From the NCBI GenBank assembly GCA_022566715.1, contig JADFIH010000005.1, forward strand, positions 1 through 53,082: DNA of 53,082 bases, given 5' to 3'. Shown here in pieces: positions 5,174 through 11,449 of the stretch. A program made the position numbers and the translations under genes. The first letter of the stretch is position 1, and each line of letters opens with the position of its first letter. The notes below the pieces were generated by a model. It was not told where the DNA came from, did not search any database, and saw nothing but the letters and a program-made list of their open reading frames with translations. This stretch comes from Pseudomonadota bacterium. GTDB lineage: Bacteria > Pseudomonadota > Alphaproteobacteria > SHVP01.

Positions 5174-8100
5174 TTAGTCCGCCACCCCGAGGGGCGCGCG
5201 GGCGGGCGACTCGCCCAAGGCGGCGTCGAGCACGGGAAGGGCGGCGGCGAGGCGTAGTTCCCCGGCCTGTTGCCGCAGCCGGCGAAGCTCGCCGAGATTT
5301 TCCTCGCCCTTGCCGCCGGCGCCGAAGGCCGCCAAAGCCCTGCCCCAGCGAACGTAGTAATCGGACCAGCGCAGGGGCTCGGCCCGAAAATATTCCTCCA
5401 ACGCGTCCGCGTAACGCAGAACGGCTGACAACTCGCCGATTCGGATGCAGACCGCAATGGCGTCGCTGTAGAAAAATAGATAATTGTGGCTGACGCATTC
5501 CTCGGCGAGGGCCTTTTCAGCCTCGGCCAGCGCGTCACCGCGCACGGTCGGATCCTCGGTGACCAGGGCCAGGATGCCGAAGCACATGGGCCCGACGAAG
5601 GAGAGGCCGGTCTCGCGGCTTATGGCGATAGCCTCGGTGACCAGGGTAACCGCCTCGTCACCGCGCCCCTCCACAAACGCCGCCTTGGCCAGGAACGCCA
5701 GAAACCAAGCTTCGAAGCGCCGCGCGCCGATCCGCCGCGTCAGGGCAAGGCCCCTATGGAGTTCCTCCTGCGCGGCTTTGGGGTCGCCTGCATGGAGCAG
5801 CATGCAACCACCCATCCGGGCGACGATTTCCGCCCGATTTAGTCCGATTCGCTGCGCCATCGCCGCGGCCGTCCGGCAATCCTCCCAGCCCCCCGCGAGG
5901 TCGATATTGTAGAAGCGGGTGTAGCCACGCATGTGCAGGTTGGCGACCTCGATACGCACGAAACCGTGCTTCCGGCAAAGCTTGATACAATCGTCAAAGT
6001 GCTTGTTGGCGGTGATCATGCGGCCGCGCTGATAGTAGGCATCGCCGAGCCCGCCAAGGGCGCGGGCCTCGCTCTCGGCCGATCCGGCGGCGCGGGAATA
6101 CTTCCGGGCTGCTTCATGTTCTTCCAGGCAACCCTCGATGTTGCCCGTCGGAAAAAATATGTTGCCCCGATCAAAATGAATTCTTGCCACATCGGCCGGG
6201 TCGGCGTCCGTTACCGTTGCCTTTTCGGCCTGCGCCAGCGCGTCCAACGCCTCGTCATAGCGGTCCAGCACGCGCATGCCCCCGGCAACCCCGAGCCAGG
6301 CCCGGCAGCGGTCCCGGTCGCTCGTGCCACAGTTCAGCGCGCCGCGGAATGACTCGATCGACGTCTCGTTTTCGCCCAGGTAGCGAAGGGCGTCTCCCTG
6401 AAGGCAGAGCAGGGCACAGCGGGTTTGCGGCTCGGGCTCCAGTGCGAGGCCGTCCGCACAAAGCCCTTGCGCCGTCTCGAAGTGAAAATCGCCGGCCTGC
6501 CCTTGCGCCGCTTCGAGGTAGGCGCCGGGCGCCAACAGTGACTCCGCCCGTGCAAGGTGCTCGGCGTGAAGAATGGGGTCGCGATCCTTGAACCACATAG
6601 CCGCGCGCTCGTGCAGTTCGTGCCGATTCGATTTCAGAAGGGAAGCATACGCGCCATCCCGAATCAGTGAGTGGCCGAATAGATATTCCGCGCCCTCGGG
6701 CTGAACGAGGTAATGCTCGATCAAAGATGTGCAGGAGAAGCCCCCATCTCCCAACAGATGGCGCAACAACTCCAAGCTGAAACGTTGGCCAATCACCGCC
6801 GCCGCGCGCAACGCTCTGCGGTCACGGTCGTCGAGCATGTCCATGCGCGCCAGTACGCTACTTTGCACCGAACCAGGTACGGTCCCAGCCGTTGCCTCCT
6901 CGGCGCTGCGCAACAACTGCTCGAGAAACATCGGATTGCCCTCGGCCCGGGCCACGCAGGCGGCGGCAAACTCACTCTGGGTGTCGACGAATGCCGCGGC
7001 CATCTCCGTCGCCTCTTTCTCCCGTAGGGGCGGAAGATCGATCGTCGTCAGCTCGACCCCGCGCGCCGTTGCCCGCCAGGCTGCGTCGAGTGGATCACCA
7101 TCGACGCGGGAGGTCATGACGAGAACGGCGCGGTATTCGAACAGGGCGCGCGCCAAATAAGCGAGGTCCGCGAGCACCGGGGCATCCGCCCATTGGACGT
7201 CCTCGACCAGGAGCAGGACCGGCCGTGCCGCGCTGGCCGCCGCGAGAAGCTCCCCGAGGGCCTTTCTCTTACCCTCGTTGCGAAGGGTGTAGTCCATGGC
7301 GTCATAGAGCGCGCGCAGGTCCGCGGGCTGGGGGAGGTCGAGCAGGTCGTTCAAATGCGCGCGGCGTTCGTCCCCGACGCCGTCAGCGGAAATAGCGGCG
7401 TCGGCGGCGGAGGCCCGCTCGTTCGAACCCGCCGATGGTCCAAGGCCCAGAACCCCGCGCACCAGGACACGGATCGCGTCGCGCCCCTTGCCCGTGCCGA
7501 AGTCGAGAATCAGCGCGCGGTGGCAGGCGAAGCCCCGGGCCTCCCCCAACCGGCGGAATTCCTCCAACAACCGGGTCTTGCCAACCCCGACTTCTCCGCG
7601 CAGATAGACGCACTCGCCGTTCCCGGTCTCGGCGCAGGCCTCCAAAATGGCCGCGAACTGCCGAGTCTCGCGGCGCCGGCCGACAAACGCCCGAGCCTGT
7701 CCCTGGTGTGCGGAATCCAGCAGCGCCAGGACGCGCCACGCCCGCACGGAACCTTCGATCCCCTTGAGGGTCATCCCCGCAGCCGATTCGCAGCGGAACA
7801 GGCCGGACACCTCGCGGTAGACCTCATCGGCGATCAGGGTTTCGCCACGTTGCGCGGTGTCTTGAAGGCGGGCCGCCAGGTTCACGGTCTCGCCCGTCAC
7901 CGTATATTCCTGATGGGCCTCGCTGCCCGTCCCGCTCGCGACCACCGTACCGGCGGCAAGGCCGATGTGCACGCCGAGCGGCGGGTCCAGTCTTGCCGCC
8001 GCCGCATGGATATCGAGGGCGGCCCGCACGGCCCGTTCGGGGTCGTTCCCGTGGGCCGTGGGCGCCCCGAATACCGCCATCACATTGTCGCCGATGTGCT

Positions 8101-8470
8101 TGTCGATGTGCCCCCCATACTCGGTAATGGCGGCGTCCGCCGCGGCGAAGAACCGGTTGAGCAGGGCGTGGGTGTCCTCCGCGTCGAGCTCTTGGGAAAG
8201 CTTGGTGAACCCCGAAAGATCGGCAAACAGGACGGTGACCTGCCGGCGTTCTCCGGCCGTGGATAGGTTGACCGGGGCCGGGGCGGCCGTGGTAACCCGC
8301 GCCGTCTGGCCGGCGGCCGTTCCTAGGCCGTGACCGCAGCTATCGCAAAACTTCTGGTCCGCCACGACGGCGGCGCCGCAGGCCGGGCAAGCGGATTCGA
8401 GCTTCGCGCCGCAGTCGGCGCAAAACCTGGCGCCCTCCCGATTGTCCGAGCCGCAGGACGGACACAACAT
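5174..8470 (-). CDS. Zinc-ribbon / class III cyclase / AAA ATPase / TPR regulator
   Basis: A 1098-residue soluble signalling protein. Two zinc ribbons open it (CPSC...CADC and CPAC...CDSC, residues 3-45). A class III cyclase domain follows at about 77-250, with FADLSGF, IGDNVMAVFG and the VNLAARL Asn/Arg pair. An AAA-type NTPase domain comes next, with Walker A GEVGVGKT near 292-299 and Walker B VLLLVEDVQWAD near 417-428. The remainder is helical repeats of TPR type. This multi-domain design is known across proteobacteria and is thought to couple ligand or partner sensing by the repeats to nucleotide cyclisation. Its unusual aspect here is tight coupling to two surface-polysaccharide genes downstream. 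The start has a divergent regulatory region upstream. Confidence 0.88.
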   Translation of the reverse strand: MLCPSCGSDNREGARFCADCGAKLESACPACGAAVVADQKFCDSCGHGLGTAAGQTARVTTAAPAPVNLSTAGERRQVTVLFADLSGFTKLSQELDAEDTHALLNRFFAAADAAITEYGGHIDKHIGDNVMAVFGAPTAHGNDPERAVRAALDIHAAAARLDPPLGVHIGLAAGTVVASGTGSEAHQEYTVTGETVNLAARLQDTAQRGETLIADEVYREVSGLFRCESAAGMTLKGIEGSVRAWRVLALLDSAHQGQARAFVGRRRETRQFAAILEACAETGNGECVYLRGEVGVGKTRLLEEFRRLGEARGFACHRALILDFGTGKGRDAIRVLVRGVLGLGPSAGSNERASAADAAISADGVGDERRAHLNDLLDLPQPADLRALYDAMDYTLRNEGKRKALGELLAAASAARPVLLLVEDVQWADAPVLADLAYLARALFEYRAVLVMTSRVDGDPLDAAWRATARGVELTTIDLPPLREKEATEMAAAFVDTQSEFAAACVARAEGNPMFLEQLLRSAEEATAGTVPGSVQSSVLARMDMLDDRDRRALRAAAVIGQRFSLELLRHLLGDGGFSCTSLIEHYLVQPEGAEYLFGHSLIRDGAYASLLKSNRHELHERAAMWFKDRDPILHAEHLARAESLLAPGAYLEAAQGQAGDFHFETAQGLCADGLALEPEPQTRCALLCLQGDALRYLGENETSIESFRGALNCGTSDRDRCRAWLGVAGGMRVLDRYDEALDALAQAEKATVTDADPADVARIHFDRGNIFFPTGNIEGCLEEHEAARKYSRAAGSAESEARALGGLGDAYYQRGRMITANKHFDDCIKLCRKHGFVRIEVANLHMRGYTRFYNIDLAGGWEDCRTAAAMAQRIGLNRAEIVARMGGCMLLHAGDPKAAQEELHRGLALTRRIGARRFEAWFLAFLAKAAFVEGRGDEAVTLVTEAIAISRETGLSFVGPMCFGILALVTEDPTVRGDALAEAEKALAEECVSHNYLFFYSDAIAVCIRIGELSAVLRYADALEEYFRAEPLRWSDYYVRWGRALAAFGAGGKGEENLGELRRLRQQAGELRLAAALPVLDAALGESPARAPLGVAD

Positions 8471-8864: not shown

Positions 8865-9608
8865 ATGACGAGCCACGCCGGCACAAGCGAATCAACGACC
8901 GGTCTCCCAACGACCGGTCTAGTTGACTCCCAGGTGCGCTTTGCCGCCGGGCAGATGCAGCGCACGAAGAATCTGTGGCCGCCGTACTTGCCCGTCCTGC
9001 GGTTCGCTCTCCTCAACATGACCGGGTTAGCCCTTCTTGTGGCGGCCTACTTCCAGGGCTGGATCGACACGGTCATTGCCGCGGACAGCACCCGTCTGGT
9101 CTTCGTCATCTTCGGCATGTTTGTCCTTGGGCTCGCGATCGCCGGGCGCCTGGTCTGGCGCATCAGCGACGAGCTCAACCATGTCTCGGAATACAAGTTC
9201 AGCGAGGCGTCATGGGCGGCGTCCTACTTCGCCGAAGTGAAGGGCCGCGGCTCCGGCAGCCGCGCTATTACGGCTTCCGCGCTGCGCATGAAAATGGCGA
9301 ATCGCATCAGCGCCGTCCGCCACCTCGCCAACAGCCTCGTGTTGCTCGGACTGATCGGAACGGTCCTCGGTTTCATTATCGCGCTGTCCGGCATTGATCC
9401 CGAACGCGCGGCCGACGTGAGCTCCATCGCCCCGCTCGTCGGCGATCTTATCGCCGGCATGTCGGTGGCGTTGTTTACCACCCTGGTCGGCGCCGTCCTC
9501 AATATCTGGTTGATGGTGAATTACCGCATCCTGTCCGACAGCGCCGTCAACCTGACGGCCGCCATCGTCGGCACCGGGGAGGCGAATGAACGACCTCGAT
9601 CAATTTGA
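8865..9608 (+). CDS. MotA/TolQ/ExbB-type proton channel subunit
   Basis: A 247-residue inner-membrane protein with four predicted helices at about 45-66, 77-99, 154-176 and 193-219. The third and fourth carry the family signature: LVLLGLIGTVLGFIIAL, with the conserved Gly-Thr-Val-Leu-Gly, and LIAGMSVALFTTLVGAVLN. Such proteins form pentameric proton (or sodium) channels around a dimer of an ExbD/TolR/MotB-type partner and turn ion flow into mechanical work. The start has an excellent ribosome binding site, AAGGAG, eight bases before the ATG. It overlaps the next gene by 23 bases, so the two are made together. It is not a standard tolQ or exbB: no tolR, tolA, tolB, pal or tonB is nearby. Confidence 0.85.
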   Translation: MTSHAGTSESTTGLPTTGLVDSQVRFAAGQMQRTKNLWPPYLPVLRFALLNMTGLALLVAAYFQGWIDTVIAADSTRLVFVIFGMFVLGLAIAGRLVWRISDELNHVSEYKFSEASWAASYFAEVKGRGSGSRAITASALRMKMANRISAVRHLANSLVLLGLIGTVLGFIIALSGIDPERAADVSSIAPLVGDLIAGMSVALFTTLVGAVLNIWLMVNYRILSDSAVNLTAAIVGTGEANERPRSI

Positions 9609-10182
9609 GGACGACGAAGCCAGCACGGTCTTCCGCGACGTCATCATGCTGACCCTGCTCGGGTTCGTCGCCATCGTCGTTCTCCTGCTCCCTCACCTGA
9701 ATCCGCCCTTTGAGTCGGTCGAAGCGGCGACGCCGCCCGGTAATGTGATCGTCGAGATTCTCTGGCCCGACGAGATCGATACCGACGTCGACCTGTGGGT
9801 GGAAGCACCGGGTGACCAGCCCGTGGGCTACTCCAATCTGGGCGGCCTGGTCTTCGACATGCTGCGCGACGACCGCGGGCATTACCGCGACATCTCCGGC
9901 GCCAACTACGAAGTCGCCTATAGCCGCGGCGCACCCAAGGGCGAGTACACGGTTAACGTTCACCTCTATTCGAATGCGGAGCGCGCTCTCCCGGTCCCGG
10001 TCAAGGTCATCGTGAGCGTGCGGGTCGACGACAAGAAGATCCGCCGCATCGCCGCCCGGGATGTCTCGCTCGGTTTCCTCGGCGAGGAAATCACCGTCTT
10101 GCGCTTCTCGTTGGACGACAAGGCGCGCCTTGTCCCGGGAAGCATCCACCAGTTGCCGCGCCCCCTGCGCGCCGCCCGTTAA
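9586..10182 (+). CDS. ExbD-like membrane anchor with periplasmic beta domain
   Basis: A 198-residue protein with a short acidic cytoplasmic start, one membrane helix (about 18-40) and a periplasmic domain. The helix begins FRDVIMLTLLGF, which lines up with the ExbD/TolR motif F-x-D-V and places Asp18 at the proton-carrying position. The outer part (about 52-150) does not look like the ExbD/TolR fold or the OmpA-like domain of MotB. It reads VIVEILWPDEIDTDVDLWVEAP and later GEYTVNVHLYSN, resembling DUF2135/YfaP-like beta-sandwich domains (tryptophan, acidic turn, D-x-D-L-W-V, then G-x-Y-x-V-x-V). GGGGAGG precedes the ATG. The ExbD role is inferred from the TM Asp and the coupled channel gene; the outer-domain assignment is tentative. 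Confidence 0.65.
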   Translation: MNDLDQFEDDEASTVFRDVIMLTLLGFVAIVVLLLPHLNPPFESVEAATPPGNVIVEILWPDEIDTDVDLWVEAPGDQPVGYSNLGGLVFDMLRDDRGHYRDISGANYEVAYSRGAPKGEYTVNVHLYSNAERALPVPVKVIVSVRVDDKKIRRIAARDVSLGFLGEEITVLRFSLDDKARLVPGSIHQLPRPLRAAR

Positions 10183-10198
10183 GGCGGTCTCCCAGGCG

Positions 10199-10672
10199 AT
10201 GGACCAACTTCTCGTCCTGTTCGTCGGTATCGTGGTGTTCGTCACGGCGCTCGCCGGGATCACGATCTGGTCGCCACGGCGAATGTCGGTGAAGGTCAGT
10301 GCGCTGGCCCTGTCGGCGCTCCTCATGGCGAGCAGCTACGGTGGCTTTCTCGAGCTCATGGGACGGCCCAAGCCCGCCTCGCTGGAATGGCTCTCCCAGG
10401 TCGAAGAGGCGACCGTCGTCGCCGTACGCATGCGTGAGGGCGAAGCCATCTACCTTTGGCTGGAACTGGAGACCCCATCGGAACCGCGCTCCTACGTCAT
10501 TCCCTGGAATGCGGAGGAAGCCCGGCAACTGCAAGACGCGATGCGGGAAGCTGAATCGAACGGCGGCGAGGTTCGTATGCGCGAGCCCTTCTCGGACCGG
10601 CCACAAACCGACCAGCCGATGTTTTACGCCCAGCCCCAAGCGATCCCGCCTCCCAAACCAACGGCCGGTTAG
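10199..10672 (+). CDS. Small membrane protein of unknown function, third gene of the channel module
   Basis: A 157-residue protein not recognised as a known family. Two membrane helices (about 3-23 and 31-53) are joined by a short basic loop, WSPRRMSVK. A mixed soluble region follows (residues 58-130, with VVAVRMREGEAIYLWLEL and a possible beta hairpin), then a proline-rich end, QAIPPPKPTAG. It begins 16 bases after the ExbD-like gene and is likely co-transcribed. Position and topology suggest an accessory subunit of the channel complex. That is inference only. Confidence 0.65.
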   Translation: MDQLLVLFVGIVVFVTALAGITIWSPRRMSVKVSALALSALLMASSYGGFLELMGRPKPASLEWLSQVEEATVVAVRMREGEAIYLWLELETPSEPRSYVIPWNAEEARQLQDAMREAESNGGEVRMREPFSDRPQTDQPMFYAQPQAIPPPKPTAG

Positions 10673-10816
10673 TCTCGGTCTGCATCCGTCGGGGCCACGC
10701 CACGCGGGTCCGCGCCAATGGCGGGAGCACCCGCCTGCCTCGTCACCGCGCTGTGATCCCGTGGCGCGCATGGTTCCGGTAGACTGGAACCCCAATTACC
10801 AGTGCGGACTCATAAA

Positions 10817-11449
10817 ATGAAAAAATGGCGCCTTGGTTCGGTCGCGGCACTGCTCCTCGGTGGATTCGTTCTTGGCCCCGGCACGGTGCAGGCGCAGGAG
10901 CCCGTCACACGCGTCCTGCCGAACCAGGGCGGCGCCATGGAAGGCCACACGCCACGCGGCTTCCGCGGCATGGGGACCGGGCTGTTCGTCGGGGACAATT
11001 TGAACCCGGGCTTTCCAAACGGCGATGGCGTACAGATTTTCTTGACCTTCGACCTGCGCGGGCTGCCGGACGGAGAGGTGCGGTCAGCGGTCCTGCGTGC
11101 GGGCAGCCCCCGGATTCAGGGGAACCCCTTCCGCGATCTCGGCGTGTTGCGCGGCGAAGAGATTCGCTATCGCCGTTTCTCGCCGGCGTTGTGGGACAAA
11201 GCACCCAGGGGCGCGGGCTGCATATTCGCCGAGTCTCGCGCCGGCCCATTCGCCTGCGATCTCACCGAGGCCGTCCAACGCTCCCGCGCCGACGGCTATG
11301 CTTACGCGCAATTCCGGCTGCGCCTGGATAAAGCGGGCGACGGCGACGGCCGCCCAGACATGGTGATGTTCTTCAAAAGCAACTCGAACGCGAACGAGCC
11401 CGGCATTTTCGAGCTTACAGTGGAGATAATGCCTGCGGAGGCGAACTAA
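10817..11449 (+). CDS. Exported protein, DNRLRE-like beta domain
   Basis: A 210-residue protein with a clear Sec signal peptide (MKKWRLGSVAALLLGGFVLG, cleavage expected after VQAQ). The rest resembles the DNRLRE/disaggregatase-related beta-sandwich seen in secreted proteins: FLTFDLRGLPDGEVRSAVLR, then CDLTEAVQRSRADGYAYAQFRLRL. It would act in the periplasm or outside the cell. The ATG at 10817 is preferred to a GTG at 10802 because it starts the signal peptide directly. It lies 144 bases after the small membrane protein gene, so it may have its own promoter. Its partner and ligand are unknown. Confidence 0.6.
   Translation: MKKWRLGSVAALLLGGFVLGPGTVQAQEPVTRVLPNQGGAMEGHTPRGFRGMGTGLFVGDNLNPGFPNGDGVQIFLTFDLRGLPDGEVRSAVLRAGSPRIQGNPFRDLGVLRGEEIRYRRFSPALWDKAPRGAGCIFAESRAGPFACDLTEAVQRSRADGYAYAQFRLRLDKAGDGDGRPDMVMFFKSNSNANEPGIFELTVEIMPAEAN

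Follow-up and report, generated by a model that had tools for sequence, protein, structure and literature searches.

The window, a 53,082-nt stretch of alphaproteobacterial DNA, contains three consecutive genes on the + strand, which we call A, B, and C. Gene A (8865-9608) encodes a protein of 247 residues. Gene B (9586-10182) overlaps the end of A by 23 nt and encodes a protein of 198 residues, and gene C (10199-10672) encodes a protein of 157 residues. The three reading frames proposed in a first-pass annotation, made from the sequence alone, are real and lie where they were placed, with one revision: the start of C was moved from 10061 to the ATG at 10199, which is 16 nt beyond the end of B. 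Two further genes border the trio. Divergent from it, positions 5174-8470 on the − strand encode a large protein that, judged by eye, starts with a zinc ribbon, contains an adenylate-cyclase-like domain, and has a body of ATPase/TPR-like type. Just downstream of C, positions 10802-11449 on the + strand encode a secreted-looking protein of 215 residues with no match in Pfam or NCBIfam.

The A protein

The description of A as a four-helix MotA/TolQ/ExbB-type subunit was borne out by the Pfam search, in which PF01618 (MotA_ExbB) matched above the cut-off with an E-value of 5.4e-10. The protein has four hydrophobic stretches, and the motif GLIGTVLGF lies at residues 162-170. A profile built from the A family matched solved MotA/PomA stators over TM3-TM4. 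Alignment of the homologues revealed conserved segments in both of these helices, GLIGT in TM3 (containing T166) and GMxxALxTT in TM4 (containing T206); G162, T166, G198, and T206 showed no variation across the bacterial alignment (A1). Conservation of the two threonines is claimed for this bacterial alignment only, because about 60 of the 191 rows were gapped at the TM3 and TM4 Thr columns when all A proteins, short phage forms included, were aligned automatically. With its family assignment and the conserved Thr in each of the two helices, A has the features expected of this subunit in a 5:2 motor.

The B protein

The AlphaFold model of B (pLDDT 83.7) consists of one long helix (residues 11-38) followed by eight strands, with an outer part that is all-beta. 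The F-x-D-V segment proposed to hold the proton-carrying Asp is F16-x-D18, within this helix, and D18 is retained by 186 of 197 homologues. A single bacterial family accounts for the 11 exceptions (L116, L117, and L120-L128), whose helix Asp lies three residues earlier, in the motif FDPLG or FDPFA. B thus has the form expected of the partner in a 5:2 motor, with a single helix and an Asp inside it.

The remainder of B includes a periplasmic beta domain at approximately residues 52-178. Nine residues of B (W60, D67, D69, D95, D96, G98, E109, R114, and G119) were unchanged across 198 homologues, and the invariant acidic residues among them suggest a metal or ligand site. The periplasmic part had been said to lack ExbD/TolR and OmpA-like features, and our results agree. 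The ExbD/TolR domain PF02472 had no match in B in the Pfam search, and the model is all-beta rather than an ordinary ExbD/TolR fold, so that B does not qualify as an ExbBD/TolQR-type partner. An OmpA-like peptidoglycan-binding domain was found neither in B nor in the aligned homologues, and B is likewise not of the MotAB type.

Its proposed relationship to DUF2135/YfaP domains was upheld as a distant one. Comparison by hhalign gave an E-value of 1e-4 for the B domain against E. coli YfaP and 1.8e-8 against a DUF2135-like domain at the C-terminus of a larger protein (L131). PF09906 (DUF2135) scored 15.6 bits in B, below its gathering score of 22 bits, so that B is not a DUF2135/YfaP member by that standard. 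The core segments W, DxDLxV, and GxYxV are common to B, DUF2135/YfaP, and the L131 domain; B differs by its fusion to a motor anchor helix and by an extra invariant R-D-D-x-G motif. These comparisons support distant homology between the outer domain of B and DUF2135/YfaP. Among solved structures, there was no significant profile match for B, and Foldseek against the PDB returned none below 1e-3.

The C protein

C is a conserved family, as judged from alignments of its homologues. Its model (pLDDT 85.2) contains two helices and a small soluble alpha/beta domain, and the protein has a conserved Pro-rich tail, FYAxPQPxxPPK. Because the link between the two helices is basic, the positive-inside rule suggests that both ends of C are periplasmic. 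Neither C (P0003) nor its family profile matched anything in Pfam or the PDB, NCBIfam gave nothing of note, and Foldseek of the model against the PDB gave no match below 1e-3.

Conservation of the trio in bacteria

A search of genome contigs with a single protein found nothing; an alignment-based search found relatives. The profile scan of named genomes yielded 352 relatives, and the counts given here rest on the best 80, nearly all from Pseudomonadota (Rhodospirillales, Azospirillum, Tistrella, Mesorhizobium, Granulosicoccaceae, and Thiobacillus). Genes in the homologous loci were called with a simple script, and the calls were checked by profile searches. With one round of profile iteration, the three genes were co-located in all 80 of these bacterial loci, and also in 71 of the 80 IMG/VR contigs kept from 291 relatives. 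We conclude that the three genes form a genuine conserved module, beyond what chance would produce. The gene set is conserved in related genomes, and the proposal that C is a dedicated subunit is supported.

The order A-B-C is nearly universal; the order A-C-B was clear in one lineage. Short overlaps are usual in bacteria, with medians of 14 nt between A and B and 4 nt between B and C. In genera such as Azospirillum, a bacterial copy is the norm, and the flanks of the trio are common to members of some genera. Within the class of the source genome, C was found in 55 of 385 genomes and B in 16 of 142, all 16 of which were also C-positive. In Azospirillum, seven megaplasmid records each have two B-matching places.

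Across the homologous loci, no further neighbor family was conserved around the trio. This includes tonB, tolA, tolB, pal, and receptor genes, none of which was conserved beside it, in line with the first-pass annotation, which had described a three-gene set without tonB, tolA, pal, or defense genes. The tested neighbors of bacterial homologues were mostly housekeeping genes and not defense genes, and a defense-island context was rejected. In two bacterial genomes (L026 and L028), a gene of a lipoprotein-like family (F16) directly follows C. Some distant bacterial copies (L029-L032) have PQQ-dependent-dehydrogenase-like genes nearby, with a cytochrome-c-like gene in L029 and L031. The proximity of PQQ-type dehydrogenases was considered as a functional clue and was dropped, because it did not recur across loci.

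Carriage by phages

B was found in 19 distinct Rhizobium and Sinorhizobium phages in the databases. The whole trio was detected by profile in all five of the phage records examined, and three more phage trios were recognized from annotation. The carriers include the temperate phage 16-3 and Pootjesviridae of about 155 kb (RHph_Y68 and P10VF). The annotation of B in these phages is "hypothetical" or a number alone. The 16-3 trio consists of p038, p040, and p042 and lies between the tail-fiber genes and the attachment site, in a part of the genome termed the silent region (PMC10460002). Searches of PHROGs yielded only weak matches to families of unknown function, with no entry for the trio itself, and those of BFVD yielded nothing beyond partial matches to uncharacterized or unnamed viral proteins.

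Phage A proteins have a median length of 171 residues, versus 256 in bacteria, and have little left beyond the membrane bundle. In the A protein of RHph_Y68, the TM3 Thr is apparently replaced by Ala, as read by eye. In all 14 viral loci that have a gene of the trypsin-like protease family, which belong to one viral lineage, that gene immediately precedes A; such a gene is also close upstream in 16-3, NV1.1.1, TM3_3_14B, and X2_25. Endolysin genes (in L148, L161, and L173) and lysozyme genes (in TM3_3_14B and X2_25) lie 1-3 kb upstream in several cases. Terminase or phage DNA polymerase genes are near the trio in some viral contigs; the lineages of Y68/P10VF, N3_13, and the large contigs have it amid replication or packaging genes. 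In three rhizobial phages (L221, L222, and L228), the trio is interrupted by homing-endonuclease genes of GIY-YIG-like or HNH type.

A tree of B does not separate phage from bacterial copies; well-supported branches force at least four to five changes of label, with the reservation that some IMG/VR rows among the bacterial rows could be host DNA. IMG/VR contigs may be misclassified host DNA, although none of the named phage records is a metagenomic contig.

Relation to known motors

Known 5:2 motors power flagella, gliding, outer-membrane upkeep, nutrient uptake, secretion, and phage defense. Two published accounts include MotAB/PomAB, ExbBD, TolQR, GldLM, AglRQS, ZorAB, and SiiAB among these ion-driven motors (PMC9389320, PMC12204202). 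The trio resembles them in the homology of A to MotA/PomA over TM3-TM4 and in the one-helix B with its helix Asp; it differs in the DUF2135-like beta domain on B, the near-constant two-helix C, and its carriage by many phages. Judged by these testable sequence features, the trio belongs among the 5:2 ion motors and is not ExbBD, TolQR, MotAB, or Zorya. For Zorya, ZorA models scored about 21 bits or less, with cut-offs of 100 or more; PADLOC had no match for B or C; and Zorya families were absent from the tested neighbors of the homologues, so that the trio does not qualify as Zorya.

The source genome has PF02472 only at another locus. Contig C34 of this genome has an ExbB/TolQ-ExbD/TolR pair with adjacent matches, and C257 has a MotAB-like pair; the trio is therefore additional to these systems.

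Virus-encoded motA and motB have been reported as auxiliary genes, with a MotB that carries a peptidoglycan-binding motif (PMC8290583). The viral trios are likewise of the MotA/MotB superfamily, but by that description they are set apart by having no peptidoglycan-binding motif and by having a third gene. Surveys of motor evolution, in the passages that note diverse appendages, do not include the trio among them (PMC12505986, PMC12204202). Literature searches returned no paper on the trio and no experiment on any member. Both the outer arm of B and the partner C appear to be of kinds unreported for such motors.

Discussion

The homology of A and the conserved residues of A and B make a strong case that these two proteins form a motor. 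We favor the interpretation that the trio is a self-contained 5:2-type ion motor that acts on the envelope and is used by both hosts and phages, and we assign it a probability of roughly 0.6. By homology with the known motors, about five copies of A would ring two B helices, ions would cross the A/B interface via Asp18 of B, and B would turn relative to A. The two DUF2135-like domains of B would stand in the periplasm. C would sit beside the motor with its soluble tail in the periplasm, where it is expected to be a partner or regulator of the B beta domain. Because phage A has little cytoplasmic part, the work would be delivered to the periplasm or outer envelope, perhaps on an outer-membrane or cell-wall target. 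The module would need no other conserved gene. Our best guess for the benefit is envelope control. In bacteria this could mean upkeep of the outer membrane or periplasm; in phages the same function may shield the infected cell or close it off, as in superinfection exclusion.

Some of the same evidence could be accommodated by a Tol- or Ton-like housekeeping energizer of bacteria, which some phages would have borrowed as an auxiliary gene for the host envelope or nutrient uptake. A is homologous to motors, and the bacterial copies have housekeeping neighbors and flanks common within genera. However, the source genome already has an ExbB/TolQ-ExbD/TolR pair, and no TonB, TolA, TolB, Pal, or receptor gene is conserved alongside the trio; we regard this explanation as unlikely, if the least so of the alternatives. 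Slightly less likely, in our judgment, is a Zorya-like anti-phage or superinfection-exclusion sensor, a motor that would sense the envelope disturbance caused by an incoming phage and block that phage. The absence of a cytoplasmic effector gene and of a ZorA-like tail, the location outside defense islands, and the scores of the Zor models far under their cut-offs all speak against such a sensor, whereas carriage by phages and prophages, the patchy bacterial distribution of C in its class, the mixing of phage and bacterial copies in the B tree, and the weak ZorA similarity count in its favor. Because the bacterial copies lie outside defense islands and share flanks in some genera, they fit a housekeeping role better than exclusion, a point against our preferred interpretation as well.

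The genes upstream of some viral trios could instead point to an aid in lysis, with the phage motor and the neighboring periplasmic protease weakening the periplasm or outer membrane late in infection and the bacterial copies being domesticated or serving envelope turnover. The protease gene that immediately precedes A in one viral lineage and the endolysin and lysozyme genes described above are consistent with this, but the trios of Y68/P10VF, N3_13, and the large contigs lie amid replication or packaging genes rather than lysis genes. In addition, a bacterial copy is the norm in genera such as Azospirillum, and no lysis gene is a conserved neighbor of the bacterial copies. We consider a role in lysis improbable. 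We give still less credence to a complex that kept the fold without rotation, either leaking ions passively or serving a structural role in the membrane: the helix Asp and the TM3 and TM4 threonines are conserved, even though phage A subunits are short and one of them seemingly has no TM3 Thr.

More tentatively than the motor interpretation itself, and at somewhat less than even odds, we put forward the possibility that the trio represents an unrecognized family of three-protein ion-driven machines, that phages use it during infection to act mechanically on the host envelope (to exclude rivals or to prepare for lysis), and that it has been exchanged several times between bacterial chromosomes and phage genomes.

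Under our preferred interpretation, an envelope-acting ion motor used by hosts and phages, the known motors are joined by a widespread family whose output arm differs from theirs and which has a third subunit of its own. Carriage of the trio by phages, which was not part of the reading made from the sequence alone, alters the likely biology. The presence of the trio in many bacteria and phages points to an unrecognized mechanism by which both cells and viruses act on the envelope. Carriage by both classical and virulent-type phages suggests that viruses may supply the host envelope with an ion motor of their own; rhizobial laboratory systems, such as Sinorhizobium meliloti infected with phage 16-3, offer an immediate test of this idea.
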